DNA of 51,028 nt from Candidatus Rokuibacteriota bacterium (GTDB taxonomy: Bacteria; Methylomirabilota; Methylomirabilia; Rokubacteriales; CSP1-6). Below are positions 22,865 to 32,202 of the stretch, one piece after another; position 1 is the stretch's first letter; the number at the start of each line of letters is the position of its first letter. The position numbers were made by a program, and so were the translations under genes. The DNA lies in NCBI GenBank assembly GCA_016188005.1, contig JACPIQ010000098.1, forward strand, positions 1 to 51,028, in the 5' to 3' direction. Under the pieces are notes generated by a model. It saw only the letters and a program-made list of their open reading frames with translations. It was not told where the DNA came from and did no database searches.

Positions 22865-23236
22865 TTACGTTCGCGAGCGCACCGGGTGGATGGTGTAGTT
22901 CCAGTCTCTGCGGAAGCGATGGGGCGTCAGCGTGAGGTGAGCCATCTGCGCGTCCGAGATCGCTTGGCCCTTCGGGTACGTCCCGCGATCCAGTTCACAG
23001 CGCACGCGCAGGCCGGCGGTGGTGCGGGTGGAGCCGATGAGATTCACGATCACGGCCAGGCTGATCAGCGGCTGCCCGCGCCAGTTGGTGCTGATGTACG
23101 AGAAGAGACGATGCTCGATCTTGGTCCATTTGCTGGTCCCGGGGGGAAAGTGACACACGGTGATCGTGAGCCCCGTGCGGTTGGCCAACTGTTGGAGTTC
23201 CCACTTCCACAGCCGGACCCGCGTCCCGTTGCTACC
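22865..23236 (-). mobile_element. Remnant of an ISAzo13-family transposase (C-terminal part)
   Basis: The reverse strand reads from GSNGTRVRLWKWELQQLANR through GLTITVCHFPPGTSKWTKIE, HRLFSYISTNWRGQPL and the end RDWNYTIHPVRSRT. These are the DDE-domain C-terminal signatures of ISAzo13-type transposases, including the catalytic Glu in KxEHRLFS. The frame is intact to its stop at 22865 but its upstream two thirds are gone: it abuts the recombinase relic at 23236. It is therefore a dead fragment, not a mobile unit. Confidence 0.85.
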
Positions 23237-23830: not shown

Positions 23831-24688
23831 TCACGCGCCGAAGCGGCCGAGCCCGGGGCGGAAGCGCGGGTCGAAGAGGTCCCGCAGGAGGTCGCCGACG
23901 GCGTTCAGCGCGAAGAGCGTGAGGGCCAGCACGCCGCCCGGGAGCAGCGTGATCCAGGGCGCGGTGCGGAGGAAGGGCAGTCCCTCCTCCACGAGCTGGC
24001 CGAGGCTCACCGCGGGCGGGGGGACGCCGAGGCCGAGGAACGAGAGCGTCGCCTCCGCGCGCACCACGTAGACGAACGTGAGCGTCGTCTGGATGAGCAT
24101 GGGTCCCAGCGCGTTCGGCAGCACATGGTGGAGGAGGATGGCGCGGACGGGGCTCCCGAGCGCCCGCGCCGCCTCCACGTACTCGCGCTCCCGGATGGCG
24201 AGGACCGCCCCGCGGACGACGCGGGCGAAGGGCGGCGCGTAGACGATGGCGAGCGCGAGGGAGAGGCTGCCGATGCCGCTGCCAGCGACGGTGACGAACG
24301 CCAGCGCGAGCAGGATCCCGGGGAACGAGAGCACGAGGTCGACCACGCGCATGAGCACCAAATCGACCCAGCGCCCGAGGTAGCCGGAGACGAGCCCGAG
24401 AGCGGTGCCGCTCACGAGGCTCGCCGCCGACACGATACCGCCGATGAGGAGCGACAGGCGCAGGCCGTGGAGGACGCGGCTCAGGATGTCCCGCCCGTAG
24501 CGGTCGGTGCCGAGGAGGTGCCCGCCGCCGGGGGCCCGGAGCCGCTCCCGCACATCCTGCGTGAGCGGATCGGCGGGAGCGAGAAGGTCCGCCCCGAGGC
24601 TCCCGATCGCCACCACCGCCAGGAGGAGGATGGCGAGGGCGGTGGGGGGCGAGCACGCCGCCGCCCGGAGCGTGGCCGCCCTAGCCAT
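23831..24688 (-). CDS. Peptide/nickel-type ABC transporter permease (DppC-like)
   Basis: A 285-residue inner-membrane permease: N-terminal helix, then HLLGTDRYGRDILSRVLHGL (the family's GTDxxGRD motif), and the EAA loop YVEAARALGSPVRAILLHHV, ending NAVGDLLRDLFDPRFRP. The ATG lies within the end of the dppB-like gene (8-nt overlap). It is the last gene of the operon. The two ATPase genes that normally follow are missing; the mobile-DNA remnants begin instead. Confidence 0.92.
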   Translation of the reverse strand: MARAATLRAAACSPPTALAILLLAVVAIGSLGADLLAPADPLTQDVRERLRAPGGGHLLGTDRYGRDILSRVLHGLRLSLLIGGIVSAASLVSGTALGLVSGYLGRWVDLVLMRVVDLVLSFPGILLALAFVTVAGSGIGSLSLALAIVYAPPFARVVRGAVLAIREREYVEAARALGSPVRAILLHHVLPNALGPMLIQTTLTFVYVVRAEATLSFLGLGVPPPAVSLGQLVEEGLPFLRTAPWITLLPGGVLALTLFALNAVGDLLRDLFDPRFRPGLGRFGA

Positions 24689-25625
24689 GCCCGATGCGCG
24701 GGTCGAGCGCCGCGTACGCGATGTCGACGAGCAGGTTGAGGAACAGGAAGAGCGTCACCACCAGCAGCACGATCCCCTGCACGAGCGGGTAGTCGCGCTG
24801 GAAGATCGCGCGCACCAGCTCCGACCCCACGCCGGGGATGCCGAAGATCGTCTCCACGACCACCGCGCTGGCGAGCAGAACGCCGACGTTGAGGCCCACC
24901 ACCGTCACCACCGGGAGCACCGCGTTCTTCAAGGCGTGCTTGGCCACGACGCTCCACTCCGAGAGCCCCTTGCTGCGGGCCGTCACCACGTAGTCCTGGC
25001 CGAGGACGTCCAGCATCCCGCCCCGCGCCATCCGCGCCACCACCGCGCCCTGGATCACGCCGTAGGTGAGCGCGGGGAGGATCATGTGCCGCGCCCAGCG
25101 CGCGAGGTCCTCGGTGGGCTCGACGTAGCCGCGGACGGGGAGCCAGTCGATCCAGACGGCGAAGACGAAGATGAAGAGGATGGCGACGAGAAAGCTCGGC
25201 AAGGCGAGGCCCGTCGTCGTGAGGGCCATCAGGGCGGTGTCCCCCCAGCCGCGCGGGCGGAGCGCGGCCAGGGTGCCGACGACGATACCGAGGAGCGTGG
25301 CGACGAAGGTGGCCGTCAGCGCGAGCTGGAGGGTGGGGCCGAGGCGCTCGAGGAGCGTGGCCAGGACCGGGGCCCGGCTCTGGTAGGAAACGCCGAGGTC
25401 TCCCTGCAAGACGCGCCCGTACCAGCCGAGGATCTGGACGGCGAGCGGGCGGTCGAGGCCGAGGTCGCTCCGGAGCCGCCGGACCTCCTCGCCACTGGCG
25501 CCGGAGCCGGCGAGGATCTGGGCGGGGTCCCCCGGGGCCAGCCGCATGAGGAGGAAGACGGCCAGCGCGCAAACGAGCCACAACGGGATCAGCGTCGCGA
25601 GCCGCTGGCCGACGAACCTCCCCAC
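24681..25625 (-). CDS. Peptide/nickel-type ABC transporter permease (DppB-like)
   Basis: A 314-residue permease with the typical start FVGQRLATLIPLWLVCALAV, the RLAPGDPA segment after helix 1, and the EAA loop YVVTARSKGLSEWSVVAKHA, ending NLLVDIAYAALDPRIGHG. The start is GTG at 25625. It forms the membrane channel with the DppC-like protein and receives substrate from the family-5 binding protein encoded 41 bp upstream. Substrate may be a peptide or, given the neighbours, an organic acid. Confidence 0.92.
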   Translation of the reverse strand: MGRFVGQRLATLIPLWLVCALAVFLLMRLAPGDPAQILAGSGASGEEVRRLRSDLGLDRPLAVQILGWYGRVLQGDLGVSYQSRAPVLATLLERLGPTLQLALTATFVATLLGIVVGTLAALRPRGWGDTALMALTTTGLALPSFLVAILFIFVFAVWIDWLPVRGYVEPTEDLARWARHMILPALTYGVIQGAVVARMARGGMLDVLGQDYVVTARSKGLSEWSVVAKHALKNAVLPVVTVVGLNVGVLLASAVVVETIFGIPGVGSELVRAIFQRDYPLVQGIVLLVVTLFLFLNLLVDIAYAALDPRIGHG

Positions 25626-25666: not shown

Positions 25667-27244
25667 CTAGCGCGCGATCCAGACGTTCCAGAACATGTCG
25701 TAGAAGGGGTCGAGCACCCGCACGCCCCGGAGGTGGTTCCGGTAGGCGTCGATGTGGTCGTAGTGGTTGAGGACGATGAGCGGCACCTCGTCCATCACGA
25801 TCTTCTGCGCCTCGTCGTAGAGCTTGATCCGCTGCGGCATGTCGAGGGCTTTTGCGGCCTCCTCGATGAGCGCGTCGAGCCGCGCGTTCTGGTACCAGCC
25901 GGGATGCTCCTTACTGTGGACGCGGATCCCGTAGTGGAAGTGGGGATCGGGCCGGAAGGCGCTCCCCACGAGCGTGCTGATGTGCCACTTGGGGACCGTG
26001 CCGCGCTTCGAGCGCTGGTACATGCTGTCGAGGTGGGCGCCCAGCTCCTGCTGCTTGAGGTCGACGTTGAGCCCCACCCCGCGGAGCTGGGCGAACAGGG
26101 TGTCGCCCGTCTCGCGCGCCAGCGTCTGGTTGATCGACTCGAGGATGCTCGGGGAGCCGTCGTAGCCGGCCTTCTTGAGCAGCTCCTTCGCGCGCGCGGA
26201 GGTGAACTCGTGGGTCCGGGCGTGCGTGGGCGTCCGCCACCGGCGCTGGACGTCGGGGATCAGGGAGTTCGCGACGCGGCCGTAGCCGGCGAAGACCTGG
26301 ACGATCAGCTCCTGGTAGTTGATGGCCGCCGCCACCGCGCGGCGGGCGTCCAGCTTGTCGAAGGGCGGGATCTTCGTGTTGAAGTACAGCGCGCTCCACC
26401 ACGTGCCCGGCGCCACCGCCACCGTCACGTCCTTCACCGACCGGAGGCGCTTCACGTCCTCGTACGGGATGACCTCGGCGTAGTCGATCTCCCCTTTCTC
26501 GAGCGAGAGCGTGCGCACGGCGTTGTCGGGGATGGGGATCCAGAGGATCTGGTCGACGTACGCCGTCTTCCGCCCGGCGTAGCCCGACGGTCTGTCCGTG
26601 CGCGCCGCATAGTCCTTGAACCGCTCCAGCTTGATGTGCTGGCCGCGCTTCCACTCCACGAACCGGAACGGGCCCGTCCCCACCGGCTGGACGATCTGCT
26701 TGTGCTGGGCGAGCTGGGCCTCGCTCGCCTCCTTGTTGAGGATGAGAGGGAAGTACTGGCTGAGGGCCGGGATGAAGGTCGGGGTGGCCTCCTTCAGCGA
26801 GATCTCCACGGTGTAGCGGTCGACCGCCTTCACCCCGCTCACGTGACGGAGATCGCCCCGCCGCGCGGACAGCTTCATGAAGCGGTCGAGGCTCCACTTG
26901 ACGTCCTCGGCGGTCAGCTCCTGGCCGTTGTGGAACTTGACGCCCTTGCGGAGGGCGAAGGTGAAGAGCTTGCCGTCTGGGCTGGCCTTCCAGCCCTCGG
27001 CGAGCATGGGGACGGGGTTCGTGTGCTCGTCCCACGTCACGAGCCCCTCGAAGAGGTGGTTGCGCACGCGGAGCCCCGGCGGGTCGTGGGCCACGTGCGG
27101 ATCCATGCTCGTCGGCTCGTAGTACTGGCCGACCCGGAGGACGCCCCCCTGCCGCGGCGTCTCCTGCGCGCCCGCGGGCGCCACCACCCACGCCGCGAGA
27201 GCGAGCGCGACCCCGACCAGCGCCATGCGCCTCAAGCCAATCAT
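25667..27244 (-). CDS. Family-5 extracellular solute-binding protein (DppA/OppA-like)
   Basis: A 525-residue exported binding protein with signal peptide MIGLRRMALVGVALALAAWV, cleaved near AGAQE, and SBP_bac_5 landmarks: YEPTSMDPHV, HLFEGLVTWDEHTNPVPMLA, TFALRKGVKFHNGQELTAED and PVGTGPFRFVEWKRG. GGAGG lies 6 nt before the ATG at 27244, which overlaps the stop of the LeuD-like gene (ATGA). Translational coupling to a hydratase subunit suggests the captured compound feeds the operon's enzymes rather than general peptide uptake. Confidence 0.92.
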   Translation of the reverse strand: MIGLRRMALVGVALALAAWVVAPAGAQETPRQGGVLRVGQYYEPTSMDPHVAHDPPGLRVRNHLFEGLVTWDEHTNPVPMLAEGWKASPDGKLFTFALRKGVKFHNGQELTAEDVKWSLDRFMKLSARRGDLRHVSGVKAVDRYTVEISLKEATPTFIPALSQYFPLILNKEASEAQLAQHKQIVQPVGTGPFRFVEWKRGQHIKLERFKDYAARTDRPSGYAGRKTAYVDQILWIPIPDNAVRTLSLEKGEIDYAEVIPYEDVKRLRSVKDVTVAVAPGTWWSALYFNTKIPPFDKLDARRAVAAAINYQELIVQVFAGYGRVANSLIPDVQRRWRTPTHARTHEFTSARAKELLKKAGYDGSPSILESINQTLARETGDTLFAQLRGVGLNVDLKQQELGAHLDSMYQRSKRGTVPKWHISTLVGSAFRPDPHFHYGIRVHSKEHPGWYQNARLDALIEEAAKALDMPQRIKLYDEAQKIVMDEVPLIVLNHYDHIDAYRNHLRGVRVLDPFYDMFWNVWIAR

Positions 27245-27756
27245 CCCTCGCCTCCCTTCCCGGCGGGCTCGACGAGCCCCTCCGCTTCGAGCAGCGGTAG
27301 GATGCCACCTTTCTCGAGGATGCGGTAGAGGGGCTCCGCCCAGGGCCGGCCCGTGAGCGACGCCCCCGTCCGCGCGTTGCGCACGGTGGCGACGGTGAAG
27401 TCGATCTCGGCCTGGTCCCCCTCCTCGAAGGCGTCGTGGACGCCGGGGACCTCGAGGCCCGGGAACCCGTAGTTCACGCAGTTGCGGAAGAAGAGCCCGT
27501 TGATCGACTCCGCGAGCAGGCACGCGATGCCCAGGTCCTTCAAGACCCGCGCCGCGGGGCGCCCGGAGCCCGTCCCGAAGTTCCGGCCCGCGACCAGGAT
27601 GTCGCCCGGCCGGACCTCGGCGGCCCAGCCCGGCCGGTTGGCCGAGAACACGTGGCGGGCCTGCTCCTGCACCGGCATGAAGATCACCGGCACGGGCTGG
27701 ATCAGGTCCGTGTTGATATCGTGACCGAAGCGCCACACCTTGCCGCGGAAGCGCAT
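27241..27756 (-). CDS. Aconitase-family small (swivel) subunit, LeuD-like
   Basis: A 171-residue swivel domain of LeuCD-type hydratases: INTDLIQPV, then DILVAGRNFGTGSGRPAARV with the conserved GRNFGxGSxR substrate loop, and FFRNCVNYGFPGLEV. It completes the active site of the LeuC-like protein encoded 18 bp upstream. Two LeuC-like proteins but only this one intact small subunit are encoded, so it may serve both. A housekeeping leucine role is unlikely given the lyase and transporter context, but cannot be excluded. Confidence 0.88.
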   Translation of the reverse strand: MRFRGKVWRFGHDINTDLIQPVPVIFMPVQEQARHVFSANRPGWAAEVRPGDILVAGRNFGTGSGRPAARVLKDLGIACLLAESINGLFFRNCVNYGFPGLEVPGVHDAFEEGDQAEIDFTVATVRNARTGASLTGRPWAEPLYRILEKGGILPLLEAEGLVEPAGKGGEG

Positions 27757-27774
27757 GTCTCCCTCCCGTCCGGA

Positions 27775-29025
27775 TCAGAGGAACTCCCGGGGATCGGCGA
27801 TCGAGCCCCGGATGGCCGAGGCCGCCACCGTGGCCGGCGACCCCATGAAGATCTCCGCGTCGTCCGCGCCCATGCGGCCCTTGAAGTTGCGCGTGCTCGC
27901 CGTGATGCAGCGTTCCTTGGGCCCGAGGGCGCCGTTCTGGAGCCCTGCGCAGGCGCCGCACGACGACGTCGTCACGAGGGCGCCCGCCTCCACCAGCGTG
28001 GCCACGAGGCCCTGCTTTAGCGCCTCCCGATAGATCGCCTGGGACCCAGGCGTCACGATGAAGCGGACGGTGGACGCCACCTTGCGCCCCTTCACCACGC
28101 GGGCGGCCACGGCGAGATCGTCGAGGGTGCCGTTGGCGCAGGAGCCGATGAAGGCCTGGTCGATGGCGACGCCCGCCGCCTCCTTCACCGGCCGCGCGTT
28201 GTGCACGACGGTGTCCGGGAAGGCCACGAGCGGCTCCAGGCGGCCCACGTCGATCGTCCGCACCGCCGCGAAGCGGGCATCGGGGTCGGACACCTGCGGC
28301 GCGAACGTCCGGGCGGTCCGCGCGCGGCAGTGCTCGACGACCTTCTGGTCGGCCTCGAACGTGGCGAACTCGGCGCTGATCTCCGCGCACATGGTGGCGA
28401 GCGTGCGCCGGGCGTCGAGCGTCATTGCCGTCACCGCGGGTCCCACGAACTCGACGTTCCGAGTGGCGTGGTCGCCGAACGTCCCCGCGATGTGGAGGAA
28501 GATGTCCTTGGCGGTCACGATGGGCGGCACCGTTCCCTCCAGCACGTAGCGGACGGTCTCGCCCACCTGGAACCAGGTGCGCCCCTTGGTCAGCACGTAG
28601 AGCAACTCGGGGCCGCCGATGCCGCGCGCCGCGCAGTTGAAGGCGCCACCGCTGCAGGTGTGGGAGTCGGCGCAGACGAGGACGGTCCCGGGCAGGGCGT
28701 AGGCGCGCTCGGCGATGAGCTGGTGGCAGATGCCCTGCTCCGGCCCCACGTCGTGGAACCGCGTGATCCCGAACCGCTTGACGAACTCGCGGCCGGTCTG
28801 GAGCGCTGTCGCCGTCTGGACATCCTTGGCGGGCACGATGTGGTCGAAGATGACCACCACCTTGTCGGGGTCCCAGACGTGGCGCACCGGGCGCCAGAGC
28901 GCGCTGATGAAGTTCATGTCGATGGGGACGCAGGTGTCGACGGCGACGTCCACGAGGTCGCCGGGCGCCACCGCCGGCCGGCCCGCGGCGCGGGCGAGGA
29001 TCTTCTCGATCATGGTCATGCCCAT
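27775..29025 (-). CDS. Aconitase-family large subunit, LeuC-like (copy 1)
   Basis: A 416-residue [4Fe-4S] hydratase subunit. Cluster Cys lie in FIGSCANGTLDDL and SSCGACAG; other landmarks are VCADSHTCSGGAFNCAARGI and the end region TASTRNFKGRMG followed by MGSPATVAASAI. I use the ATG at 29025 (MGMTMIEKILARAAG) by analogy with copy 2, which starts MGMTIAEKILARASG. It follows the lyase gene by 11 bp and precedes its small subunit. Substrates are likely C5-C6 2-hydroxy diacids. Confidence 0.9.
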   Translation of the reverse strand: MGMTMIEKILARAAGRPAVAPGDLVDVAVDTCVPIDMNFISALWRPVRHVWDPDKVVVIFDHIVPAKDVQTATALQTGREFVKRFGITRFHDVGPEQGICHQLIAERAYALPGTVLVCADSHTCSGGAFNCAARGIGGPELLYVLTKGRTWFQVGETVRYVLEGTVPPIVTAKDIFLHIAGTFGDHATRNVEFVGPAVTAMTLDARRTLATMCAEISAEFATFEADQKVVEHCRARTARTFAPQVSDPDARFAAVRTIDVGRLEPLVAFPDTVVHNARPVKEAAGVAIDQAFIGSCANGTLDDLAVAARVVKGRKVASTVRFIVTPGSQAIYREALKQGLVATLVEAGALVTTSSCGACAGLQNGALGPKERCITASTRNFKGRMGADDAEIFMGSPATVAASAIRGSIADPREFL

Positions 29026-29036
29026 CGCGCCGTCCC

Positions 29037-29945
29037 CTAGCGCCCGGCCGGGCCGCCCCCGGGCCGCACCACGTAGCGCGACTCGAGGCGCCGCCACTCG
29101 CTCATCCCGAACAGCTCGAAGAAGGCCGCCGGCGAGAACCCCATGGCGGCCACGTGGGCGTCGCTCCCCGTCTCGCGCGCCGTCTGCGCCGCCTGCCGCA
29201 TGGCGTGGATGGCCGGCCCCATGCCGAGCGTGGGTACAACAGCCAGCTTGTAGCCGAGGTCCTCGAGCTGGCGGGCGCTGAGGGCGGGGCTCTTGCCGCC
29301 AGTGGCGAGGTTGTAGAGGAGGGGCGCCTTCACCTCGCGGGCGATGGTCGTGACCTCGGCGACCGTGGTCGGCGCTTCCAGGAACACCACGTCGGCGCCG
29401 GCGGCCGCGCAGCGGTTGCCGCGGTCGATGGCGTCGGCGAGACCGGTGACAGCGATGGCGTCGGTGCGGGCGATGATGATGAAGTCGCGGTCCGTCCGGG
29501 CCTCGGCCGCGGCCCGGATCTTCTCCACGAACTCCTCGCTGGAGACGACCACCTTGCCCGCGACGTGGCCGCACTTCTTCGGGAACTCCTGATCCTCGAA
29601 GTGGACGCCGGCGATGCCGACGCGCTCGAACTCACGGACGGCGCGGATCACGTTGAGCGCGTTGCCGTACCCGGTGTCTCCGTCGACGACGAGCGGGATC
29701 TGGACGCAGGCGGCCACGCGGGCCCCGGCGTCCAGCATGTCGGCGAAGGAGAGGAAGCCGAGGTCGGGCAGACCGAGGCGACTGCCGGCGAGCCCGGCGC
29801 CGGAGAGCGACAGCGCCTCGAAGCCCGCCTCCTCCATGACGCGGGCCGAGATGCAGTCGTAGGCGGAGGGGAACAGCGTGAGCCCCGGCCGCTCGAGGAG
29901 CCGGCGGAGGCGGGTGGTCGGGCGGTCGGTCGACGGGGACGCCAT
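29037..29945 (-). CDS. Isocitrate lyase/PEP mutase-family lyase (2-methylisocitrate or dimethylmalate lyase-like)
   Basis: A 302-residue TIM-barrel enzyme: FPSAYDCISARVMEEAGFEA, Mg-binding DGDTGYGNALNVIRAVREFE, and the lyase loop HFEDQEFPKKCGHVAGK with the catalytic Cys of KKCGH, plus ARTDAIAVTG. The Cys identifies a C-C lyase rather than a phosphonomutase. Substrates in the family include methylisocitrate, oxaloacetate and 2,3-dimethylmalate. GGAGGAG within the upstream truncated small-subunit frame is its SD, and its ATG overlaps that frame's stop. Placed between two aconitase-type hydratases, it probably cleaves their product. Confidence 0.85.
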   Translation of the reverse strand: MASPSTDRPTTRLRRLLERPGLTLFPSAYDCISARVMEEAGFEALSLSGAGLAGSRLGLPDLGFLSFADMLDAGARVAACVQIPLVVDGDTGYGNALNVIRAVREFERVGIAGVHFEDQEFPKKCGHVAGKVVVSSEEFVEKIRAAAEARTDRDFIIIARTDAIAVTGLADAIDRGNRCAAAGADVVFLEAPTTVAEVTTIAREVKAPLLYNLATGGKSPALSARQLEDLGYKLAVVPTLGMGPAIHAMRQAAQTARETGSDAHVAAMGFSPAAFFELFGMSEWRRLESRYVVRPGGGPAGR

Positions 29946-30094
29946 CAGTGTGTCTCCTCCAGCAAGAGGTCCTTTGTGGTCCGGGCGGCGGGCCGGCCGG
30001 AACCGGTGCCGCCGTTGCGGCCCGCAACCAGGATGTCGCCGGGGCGGACCTGCACCGCCCAGCCGGGCCGGTTGGCCGCGAACTTCTCCTTCAC
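29945..30094 (-). pseudogene. Truncated second LeuD-like small subunit (49 codons)
   Basis: Only KFAANRPGWAVQVRPGDILV and AGRNGGTGSGRPAAR remain of a swivel domain; the first ~30 and last ~90 residues are gone, and the key Phe of GRNFG is Gly. Yet the frame is open, starts with a GTG overlapping the copy-2 LeuC stop, and ends with a TGA overlapping the lyase ATG. Its tail LLLEETH supplies the GGAGGAG ribosome site for the lyase. It may persist as a coupling leader rather than an enzyme. Confidence 0.75.
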
Positions 30095-31359
30095 GCGCGC
30101 GCTCCCCCGCCCACCGCTCGGGGGTCGGTGATGTAGCCGGTGAGGGCGGAGGCCGCCACCGTCGCCGGGGACCCCATCCAGATGCGCGCGTCGGGGTGCC
30201 CCATGCGGCCCTTGAAGTTGCGGGTGGAGGCGGTGAGGCAGACCTCGCCGGGACCGAGGGCGCCGAAGTCGAGCCCCGCGCACGCCCCGCAGGCCGACGT
30301 CGTGACGAGGGCGCCGGCCTGGATCAGGGTGTTGACGATTCCGAGCCGCGCCGCCTCGCGATAGATCCGCTGGGAGCCGGGCGTCACGATGAACCGGACT
30401 CCCGGCGCCACCTGCTTGCCCCGCACCACCGCCGCCACCGTGGCGAGGTCGTCGAGCGTCCCGTTGGCGCACGAGCCCACGAAGCACTGGTCGAGCCGCA
30501 CCTGCTCGGAGAGCTCGCCGATGGGCAGGGTGTTGTGGACGACGGTGTCGGGACGCGCCACGTAAGGCCCGAGCGCGTCGAGGTCCACGCGCCGCACCTC
30601 GACGTAGCGCGCGTCGGGGTCGGGCCACGTCGGGTGGAAGGGCAAGGTGGTCCGGGACTTGACGTGGCTCAGCAGCACGTCGTCGGGCGGCCACAGGGCG
30701 AACTCCGCGCTGACCTCCGCGCACATGGTGGAGAGCGTGCGCCGGGCGTCGAGGGAGAGGGAGCCGAGGGCGGGCCCCCCGAACTCGACGTTCAGAGTGG
30801 CGTGCGAGCCCCACCGGCCCGCGATGTGGAAGAAGACGTCCTTGGCGGTCACCCAGGGCGCGAGCGTGCCGTGGAGCTCGTACTTGACCGTCGGCCCCAC
30901 CTGGAACCACGTCTCGCCCTTGGCGAGGACGTAGGTCAGCTCGGGGGCGCCGATGCCGCGGGCGCAGCAGTTGAGGGCGCCGCCGCTGCAGGTGTGGGAG
31001 TCGATGCAGACCAGGACAGTGCCGGGGCGGGCGTAGGCCTCGTCGGCCGCCACCTGGTGGGCGATGCCCTGCGACGGCCCCACGTCGTGGAACCGCGCGA
31101 TGCCGTACTCCCTGACGAAGCGCCGCCCCGTCTGGAGGGCCTGCGCCGACTGGACGTCCTTGGGCGGCACCACGTGGTCGTGGATCACCACCACCTTCTC
31201 GGGATCCCACACCCGCGTCGGCCACCGCCACAGTCCCGGGTAGAAGCCCATGTCGATGACGACGGCGGTGTCCACCTTCACGACCACGATCTCGCCTGGG
31301 CTCACGCCCTCCCGCCCCGACGCCCGCGCCAGGATCTTCTCCGCGATGGTCATGCCCAT
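30091..31359 (-). CDS. Aconitase-family large subunit, LeuC-like (copy 2)
   Basis: A 422-residue paralogue of the copy at 27775-29025, with the same Fe-S cysteines (CFVGSCANGTLDDL, SACGACAG) and VCIDSHTCSGGALNCCARGI. It starts MGMTIAEKILARASG at 31359. Its own small subunit is reduced to 49 codons, so it must borrow the other one, act alone, or be losing function. It is the first enzyme gene after the GntR regulator, 93 bp away. Tandem duplication followed by loss is the simplest history. Confidence 0.9.
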   Translation of the reverse strand: MGMTIAEKILARASGREGVSPGEIVVVKVDTAVVIDMGFYPGLWRWPTRVWDPEKVVVIHDHVVPPKDVQSAQALQTGRRFVREYGIARFHDVGPSQGIAHQVAADEAYARPGTVLVCIDSHTCSGGALNCCARGIGAPELTYVLAKGETWFQVGPTVKYELHGTLAPWVTAKDVFFHIAGRWGSHATLNVEFGGPALGSLSLDARRTLSTMCAEVSAEFALWPPDDVLLSHVKSRTTLPFHPTWPDPDARYVEVRRVDLDALGPYVARPDTVVHNTLPIGELSEQVRLDQCFVGSCANGTLDDLATVAAVVRGKQVAPGVRFIVTPGSQRIYREAARLGIVNTLIQAGALVTTSACGACAGLDFGALGPGEVCLTASTRNFKGRMGHPDARIWMGSPATVAASALTGYITDPRAVGGGARA

Positions 31360-31452
31360 CAGCTCGTCCTCTCCTCTCCGCTCCGCTCCGGGTTCCGTCC
31401 TTCGCCCCCGGCTGGGACCCCCGCGACTCCTCCTCGATCTCCTCCGGGGGCC

Positions 31453-32178
31453 TCACCGCGACGCGGGCGCGACGGGTGCGATCGCGCGCACCACGGCCTG
31501 GCGGCTCCACTCCATGTGCCGCCGCATGGCGGCCTCCGCGCGCTCGGCGTCCCGGGCGGCGAGCGCGGCCAGGATCCGCGCGTGGTGCCGCTGGGAGGTC
31601 GCGATGTCGATGGCGTCGAGCGCCGACACGAACTGGTGGCCGATCATGGGCGTGTTGAGCCGCGTGAGGACCGCGCACAGCGTGCGGTTGCCCGCCATCT
31701 CGGCGAGCGTGTGGTGGAAGCGGTGGTTCAGCCGGACGAGCTGGACGCGATCGCGGCCTGGGGTCAGGCGCTCCGCCTCCGCGTAGACCCCGCGCAGCAC
31801 GGCGAGCAGTTCGCGGGGCCCGGTGGCAGCCAGGCGCGCGGCCACGGTCTCCAGCGCCTCCCGCACGACGTAGAGCTCGTCGACGTCCCGGTGAGTGAGC
31901 CGGCGCACGCGGGCGCCCCGATGCGAGGCCAGCTCCACCAGGTCGTCGGCGGAAAGCCGCCGGAGCGCCTCGCGCGCGGTGCCGCGGCTCACGCCGTGCG
32001 CGGCCGTCAGCTCCGCCTCCACCAGATGCATGCCGGGCAGGATCTCCCCGCCCACGATGCGGTCGCGGAGGGCCTGGTACACGCGCTCGACGGTGAGGGC
32101 CCGCGGCGGAGGTGCCACGGCGACAGCCGTCCGCCTCCGCGACCCTCCGCTGCCCCGCCGAGCGCCGTCTGACTTCAT
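31453..32178 (-). CDS. GntR-family regulator with FCD ligand domain
   Basis: A 241-residue regulator. The winged helix shows VYQALRDRIVGGEILPGMHL and VSRGTAREALRRLSADDLVE; the all-helical FCD domain carries metal-binding His candidates in LNHRFHHTLAEMAGN and SQRHHARILAAL. FCD regulators bind carboxylic acids and usually repress an adjacent catabolic operon. The ATG at 32178 lies inside a perfect palindrome (32177-32202), implying tight self-repression. It heads the operon of hydratases, lyase and transporter on the same strand. Confidence 0.92.
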   Translation of the reverse strand: MKSDGARRGSGGSRRRTAVAVAPPPRALTVERVYQALRDRIVGGEILPGMHLVEAELTAAHGVSRGTAREALRRLSADDLVELASHRGARVRRLTHRDVDELYVVREALETVAARLAATGPRELLAVLRGVYAEAERLTPGRDRVQLVRLNHRFHHTLAEMAGNRTLCAVLTRLNTPMIGHQFVSALDAIDIATSQRHHARILAALAARDAERAEAAMRRHMEWSRQAVVRAIAPVAPASR

Positions 32179-32202
32179 TGTCGGACGATATTATCCGACA
32201 AT
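32177..32202 (-). promoter_or_regulatory. Palindromic operator overlapping the gntR start codon
   Basis: ATTGTCGGA (32177-32185) and TCCGACAAT (32194-32202) form a perfect 9-bp inverted repeat with an 8-bp centre. On the minus strand the centre contains GATAAT (32195-32190), a good -10, and the last two bases of the palindrome are the first bases of the gntR ATG. A dimer here would block both promoter and ribosome entry. The site is visible; GntR as binder is inferred. Confidence 0.75.

Follow-up and report, generated by a model that had tools for sequence, protein, structure and literature searches.

Our analysis points to a substrate-induced catabolic operon that would take up a branched diacid, hydrate it and split it by retro-aldol cleavage, a reading that we consider probable on balance. 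The operon runs along the minus strand, from 32202 to 23831, of contig C98 from the 5.37-Mb genome bin of a Candidatus Rokuibacteriota bacterium described as a soil bacterium; the whole 51,028-nucleotide stretch that was analysed is called the window here. We favour this reading because lyase, LeuC and LeuD genes stand next to one another in the majority of 80 related loci, because the LeuC proteins form a separate clade and both hydratase subunits carry altered motifs, and because the lyase is neither a methylisocitrate lyase nor a CPEP mutase and has a C-terminal segment of the dimethylmalate lyase type. The reading also draws on PrpF before LeuC in one related locus (L107), on recurrent Dpp importers and on a palindrome at gntR that is unique in the genome.

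The first gene of the operon encodes a GntR/FCD regulator of 241 amino acids (31453-32178; PF00392 and PF07729). It is followed by LeuC2, an aconitase-family large subunit (30091-31359, 422 amino acids) with DSHT, GSCANG and the cluster cysteines of CGAC intact, by a LeuD remnant of about 48 codons (29945-30092), and by a lyase of the ICL/PEP-mutase family (29037-29945, 302 amino acids; PF13714). Next come LeuC1, the other aconitase-family large subunit (27775-29025, 416 amino acids), an intact LeuD small subunit (27241-27756, 171 amino acids; TIGR02087 passed), a family-5 (peptide/nickel-type) solute-binding protein (25667-27244; PF00496, SBP_bac_5), and two permeases matching BPD_transp_1, one of DppB type (24681-25625, 314 amino acids) and one of DppC type (23831-24688, 285 amino acids). 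An earlier note on this DNA had named these genes in this order on the minus strand, and all of them were found with agreeing domain or profile matches. The KKCGH that it had seen in the lyase was located at 29579-29565, and its truncated LeuD was borne out by the remnant, which matched LeuD profile positions 34-66 only, the middle of the protein, and was identical to intact leuD at 93 of 117 bases (79%). Its range of 25667-32202 proved too short for the whole operon, since both permeases lie outside it (25625-24681 and 24688-23831). Nor are the genes mostly joined by ATGA/GTGA overlaps, as had been claimed: four junctions overlap (GTGA between LeuC2 and the remnant, TGATG between the remnant and the lyase, ATGA between LeuD and the binding protein, and 8 nt between the permeases), and the remaining ones leave about 11 to 93 nt between the genes.

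A single scan of GTDB species genomes yielded 80 related loci, which by genome name belong to Pseudomonadota, Actinomycetota, Rokuibacteriota, Binatota, Acidobacteriota, Nitrospinota and Myxococcota. A same-strand lyase gene of the ICL superfamily lay near the clade LeuC in 72 of the 80 loci, so the absence of this gene order elsewhere, which the earlier note had named as an outcome that would speak against its reading, did not occur. When a strict distance rule was applied, the lyase was adjacent in 67 loci and LeuD in 66, several of the exceptions being contig ends. In about 70 other species of several phyla the hydratase and lyase genes are neighbours, with the orders lyase-LeuC-LeuD, LeuC-LeuD-lyase and MmgE/PrpD-lyase-LeuC-LeuD, and with regulators, MmgE/PrpD, PrpF and Dpp- or Tct-type transporters as variable companions. 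Because this core recurs in dozens of further genomes, the operon is not a chance array.

Near home the module is patchy. In a search of the phylum, identity above 60% was found only for the window and for a second Candidatus Rokuibacteriota genome (G066), and two genomes of the same genus had none at the threshold used. G066 is also the closest relative in gene order. Its contig C56 (L041, 1-18923) holds TctA/TctC, several LeuC/LeuD genes, three ICL-family lyases, SBP5-DppB-DppC, MmgE/PrpD and a GntR/UTRA regulator, gene names that rest on similarity and on our reading of the sequences. The genome of the window has a second lyase-LeuC-LeuD cluster on C29 (4594-7502, L042), in which the lyase is 54% identical to that of the window and LeuC and LeuD are of the bacterial type, with a long LeuC; a similar bacterial-type LeuC lies beside a clade-type pair in L096. 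This genome also has 19 matches to PF01642 (methylmalonyl-CoA mutase family), a number that seems unusually high, and the majority of these matches are full length. In Ancylobacter pratisalsi, lyase-LeuC-LeuD (L134, 8074-10757) is carried on a mobilizable plasmid, beside IS21 and Tn-type transposition genes.

We next consider the lyase. Its top PDB match was the carnation petal death protein (1ZLP), yet this is a plant enzyme on a separate branch of the tree; methylisocitrate lyases and the Aspergillus niger 2,3-dimethylmalate lyase (3FA3) followed about equally. The title of Lu 2005 presents the petal death protein as a lyase that acts on 2-hydroxy and 2-keto acids. A phylogeny against methylisocitrate lyase (PrpB), one of the checks proposed in the earlier note, placed the window lyase apart: this grouping was rejected (AU p 0.0012), and the TIGR02317 score was 258.9 against a cut-off of 354.4. 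Grouping with CPEP mutase was rejected as well (AU p 0.0008). The lyase instead fell into a tree group with those of L119, L107, L109 and L096, the C29 lyase of the same genome, and the pair formed by dimethylmalate lyase and the oxaloacetate acetylhydrolase (3LYE) of A. niger. With support of 95/81, and of a sub-threshold 87/79 once one long branch was removed, the tree weakly suggests that these two fungal enzymes are the nearest characterised lyases. The window lyase shares the C-terminal substrate segment with them, and its VPTLGMGPAIHAMR can be aligned gap-free with FPFAALGPAVAAMR of dimethylmalate lyase. To our knowledge, both A. niger enzymes stand alone, without a hydratase partner. 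Mycobacterial lyases, the rows of which were trimmed in this tree, have KRCGH at the catalytic-cysteine motif.

The main rival reading is a methylcitrate-like route, because roughly one in four loci (about 19 of 80) have MmgE/PrpD beside the module, an enzyme that points more to a citrate-like substrate. In such a route MmgE/PrpD would dehydrate an alkylcitrate, LeuCD would turn the alkylaconitate into an alkylisocitrate by hydration, and from this the lyase would release succinate and a 2-oxoacid. It would fit the position of MmgE/PrpD upstream of lyase-LeuC-LeuD in most Mycobacterium-type loci and its presence in the G066 cluster, as well as the occurrence in a few loci of PrpF, a protein that has a part in the AcnD route as well. 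The methylcitrate cycle (PrpB/PrpC/PrpD, AcnD/PrpF) likewise dehydrates and hydrates before it cleaves. However, the window operon contains neither MmgE/PrpD nor PrpC, a sister relation between its lyase and methylisocitrate lyases is rejected, and the C-terminal segment has the dimethylmalate-lyase form; we therefore regard this route as rather unlikely for the operon. The cleavage logic of hydratase followed by lyase, as put forward in the earlier note, gains from the LeuC clade, from a lyase that is not PrpB and from the 72 loci with both genes, and it is qualified by the MmgE/PrpD of some operons, which keeps the methylcitrate-like route in play.

As for the hydratase, LeuC1 and LeuC2 alike passed NCBIfam NF001614, and both have the Fe-S cysteines (GSC, CGAC), DSHT and RNFKGR that mark the LeuCD-type Fe-S hydro-lyase superfamily. 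The two-subunit Fe-S fold family and these catalytic residues are shared with LeuCD isopropylmalate isomerase and homoaconitase (HACN), whereas the window proteins differ from both in their separate clade, their altered GSCTN, GSSREHA and RYL motifs and their catabolic setting. In a tree of 64 sequences, with leuC genes adjoining leuB or cimA, the M. jannaschii isopropylmalate/citramalate isomerase and HACN as references, both window copies fell inside a clade of 35 rows with support of 100/100. The leuB-adjacent leuC of Deinococcus and Monoglobus, the cimA-adjacent leuC of Monoglobus, the M. jannaschii enzyme and HACN all fell outside. LeuC1 pairs in the tree with the Rokubacteria relative from G066 and LeuC2 with L099 and L119; a sister relation, as for a local tandem duplication, was rejected (p 6.7e-6), so the two did not arise by recent copying in tandem. 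Of the clade members checked, nearly all have GSCAN, not GSCTN, and the clade mostly reads DSHTC--GAFNC as opposed to DSHTCTYGA, with FNC or FN replacing LGAF after DSHT in most. The cluster cysteines are retained in the clade.

The small subunit departs from the biosynthetic form in a similar manner. In the intact LeuD, GSGRPAA replaces GSSREHA, and the RYL loop is gone, with PVPVIF in the loop. The marks of biosynthetic proteins, GSSRE(H/S) and the RY(L/N) loop in LeuD and GSCTN in LeuC, are thus absent from the window genes. Among LeuD partners in the clade loci, nearly all have GS[SG]R[PA] where GSSREHA would stand, and the partners are without the RYL segment seen in solved small subunits of IPMI. 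In archaeal IPMI and HACN, the choice of substrate depends on this loop. The LeuD remnant, the start of which overlaps the LeuC2 stop, retains GTGSGRPAAR. Because the LeuD behind LeuC2 is a remnant, LeuC2 must either borrow the intact LeuD or be inactive.

These motifs also bear on degradation of citraconate or mesaconate, in which LeuCD would form citramalate and the lyase would cleave it to pyruvate and acetate. The closest solved large subunit is the M. jannaschii isopropylmalate/citramalate isomerase, and related lyases such as the petal death protein are known to accept several 2-hydroxy-diacids, but the LeuD specificity loop and the LeuC motifs are unlike those of the M. jannaschii isomerase, and we consider this substrate choice unlikely. 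It is very unlikely that hydratase and lyase act on different substrates within one regulon rather than consecutively. The lyase partners are diverse, and in the lyase tree several lineages partner the one LeuC clade, as separate substrates would allow; their adjacency nevertheless persists across phyla in either order, which argues for a common intermediate. Finally, the idea of spare leucine-biosynthesis isomerases that lie beside an unrelated lyase by chance agrees with automatic annotation, where the group's small subunit goes by the name 3-isopropylmalate dehydratase, but is highly improbable given the clade separation, the AU test (p 3.5e-59, with a cost of 550 log-likelihood units when the window copies are constrained with four biosynthetic references), the separate bacterial-type LeuC encoded in the same genome and the lyase beside LeuC in most relatives. 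A grouping of the LeuC copies with biosynthetic isopropylmalate isomerases was the other outcome that the earlier note had set against its own reading, and the tree and this test show the opposite.

In the uptake, hydration and cleavage reading that we prefer, the family-5 binding protein and the two permeases, probably with ATPases encoded elsewhere, would import a branched dicarboxylate or its precursor. LeuC1-LeuD would act as an Fe-S hydro-lyase and hydrate a maleate-type acid with an alkyl substituent, yielding an alkylmalate with a 2-hydroxyl, and LeuC2, if active at all, would share the LeuD of LeuC1. The ICL/PEPM-family lyase would then cut the C2-C3 bond in a retro-aldol (Claisen-type) reaction to give a 2-oxoacid and a short carboxylate, with pyruvate as candidate for the former and propionate or acetate for the latter. 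Likened by gene logic and not by sequences, this resembles the dimethylmaleate hydratase DmdAB and 2,3-dimethylmalate lyase Dml in the nicotinate fermentation of Eubacterium barkeri, where a LeuCD-type Fe-S hydratase is likewise followed by an ICL/PEPM-family lyase, and the make-up of the operon supports the view that it may work in the same way on a branched diacid. The likeness extends in some relatives to a PrpF-family isomerase, which lies directly upstream of LeuC in L107 and is also present in L109, L103 and L061; the L107 and L109 lyases are those of the same tree group as the window lyase. PrpF is the family of 3-methylitaconate isomerase, which makes dimethylmaleate in E. barkeri (PMC4720413). 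In the genome of the window, a genome search found PrpF only as fragments at other places. Unlike the E. barkeri system, the window operon adds a GntR regulator and a family-5 importer and has two large subunits with one small subunit. No other nicotinate-pathway genes were found among the operon genes and scanned neighbours, as the earlier note had already remarked.

Dpp importers recur in L047, L080, L089, L096 and L124, with ATPases alongside in L080 and L096, and this recurrence supports uptake as the role of the transporter that the earlier note had joined to the hydratase and lyase. In the window operon itself no transporter ATPase gene is adjacent, and a domain search found eight dipeptide-type ATPase domains encoded elsewhere in the genome. 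An ISAzo13-type transposase fragment (22865-23188, C-terminal third of the DDE domain) lies just 3' of the last permease and may mark where the ATPase genes were lost. One relative shares this gene order, and its binding protein scored only 89 bits against that of the window; since the two are not closely similar, the imported compound may differ there. At the other end of the operon, the palindrome ATTGTCGGA-N8-TCCGACAAT (26 bp with perfect 9-bp arms, 32177-32202) overlaps the gntR start codon. Its core, TTGTCGGA-N4..12-TCCGACAA, occurred once in the 5.37-Mb genome in a whole-genome pattern search, in which the reversed control gave zero occurrences. Judged from its sequence and position, this palindrome is a putative GntR operator, through which the GntR/FCD protein would repress its own promoter, with the operon induced by its substrate. 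The top NCBIfam match of the regulator was phnR_burk, with a score far under the cut-off.

A wider view, which we offer as speculative, is that of a widespread modular catabolic system: a dedicated LeuC/LeuD clade, present in about seven phyla, would be joined with one or another ICL-family lyase, importer and front-end enzyme, so that a range of alkylmaleates could be broken down, with alkylmaleimides as one starting material. Alkylmaleimides are suggested by Acrocarpospora, where the module follows ATP-dependent lactam/imide hydrolases and an amidase of isochorismatase type; the lyase and LeuC of this organism belong to the closest relatives of those in the window. In that locus (L119, 4582-11775) genes for isochorismatase, hydantoinase A and hydantoinase B lie directly before lyase, LeuC and LeuD; the best match of the hydantoinase B was caprolactamase, under the cut-off, and the operon suggests a lactam or imide precursor. 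Alkylmaleimides form when heme and chlorophyll break down. Among open-licence papers, our literature search found no description of the gene set as a pathway, in agreement with the 'undescribed' route of the earlier note, and no link to hematinic acid degradation. Clade genes, for example those on the Ancylobacter plasmid, bear annotations as enzymes of leucine biosynthesis or as generic members of the aconitase family, and such labels may conceal a catabolic pathway that mycobacteria and many other environmental bacteria have in common. If the reading is confirmed, the signatures GSCAN in LeuC and GSSRP in LeuD would allow automatic re-annotation, and the dimethylmaleate-type route would gain a role well beyond one nicotinate-fermenting anaerobe.
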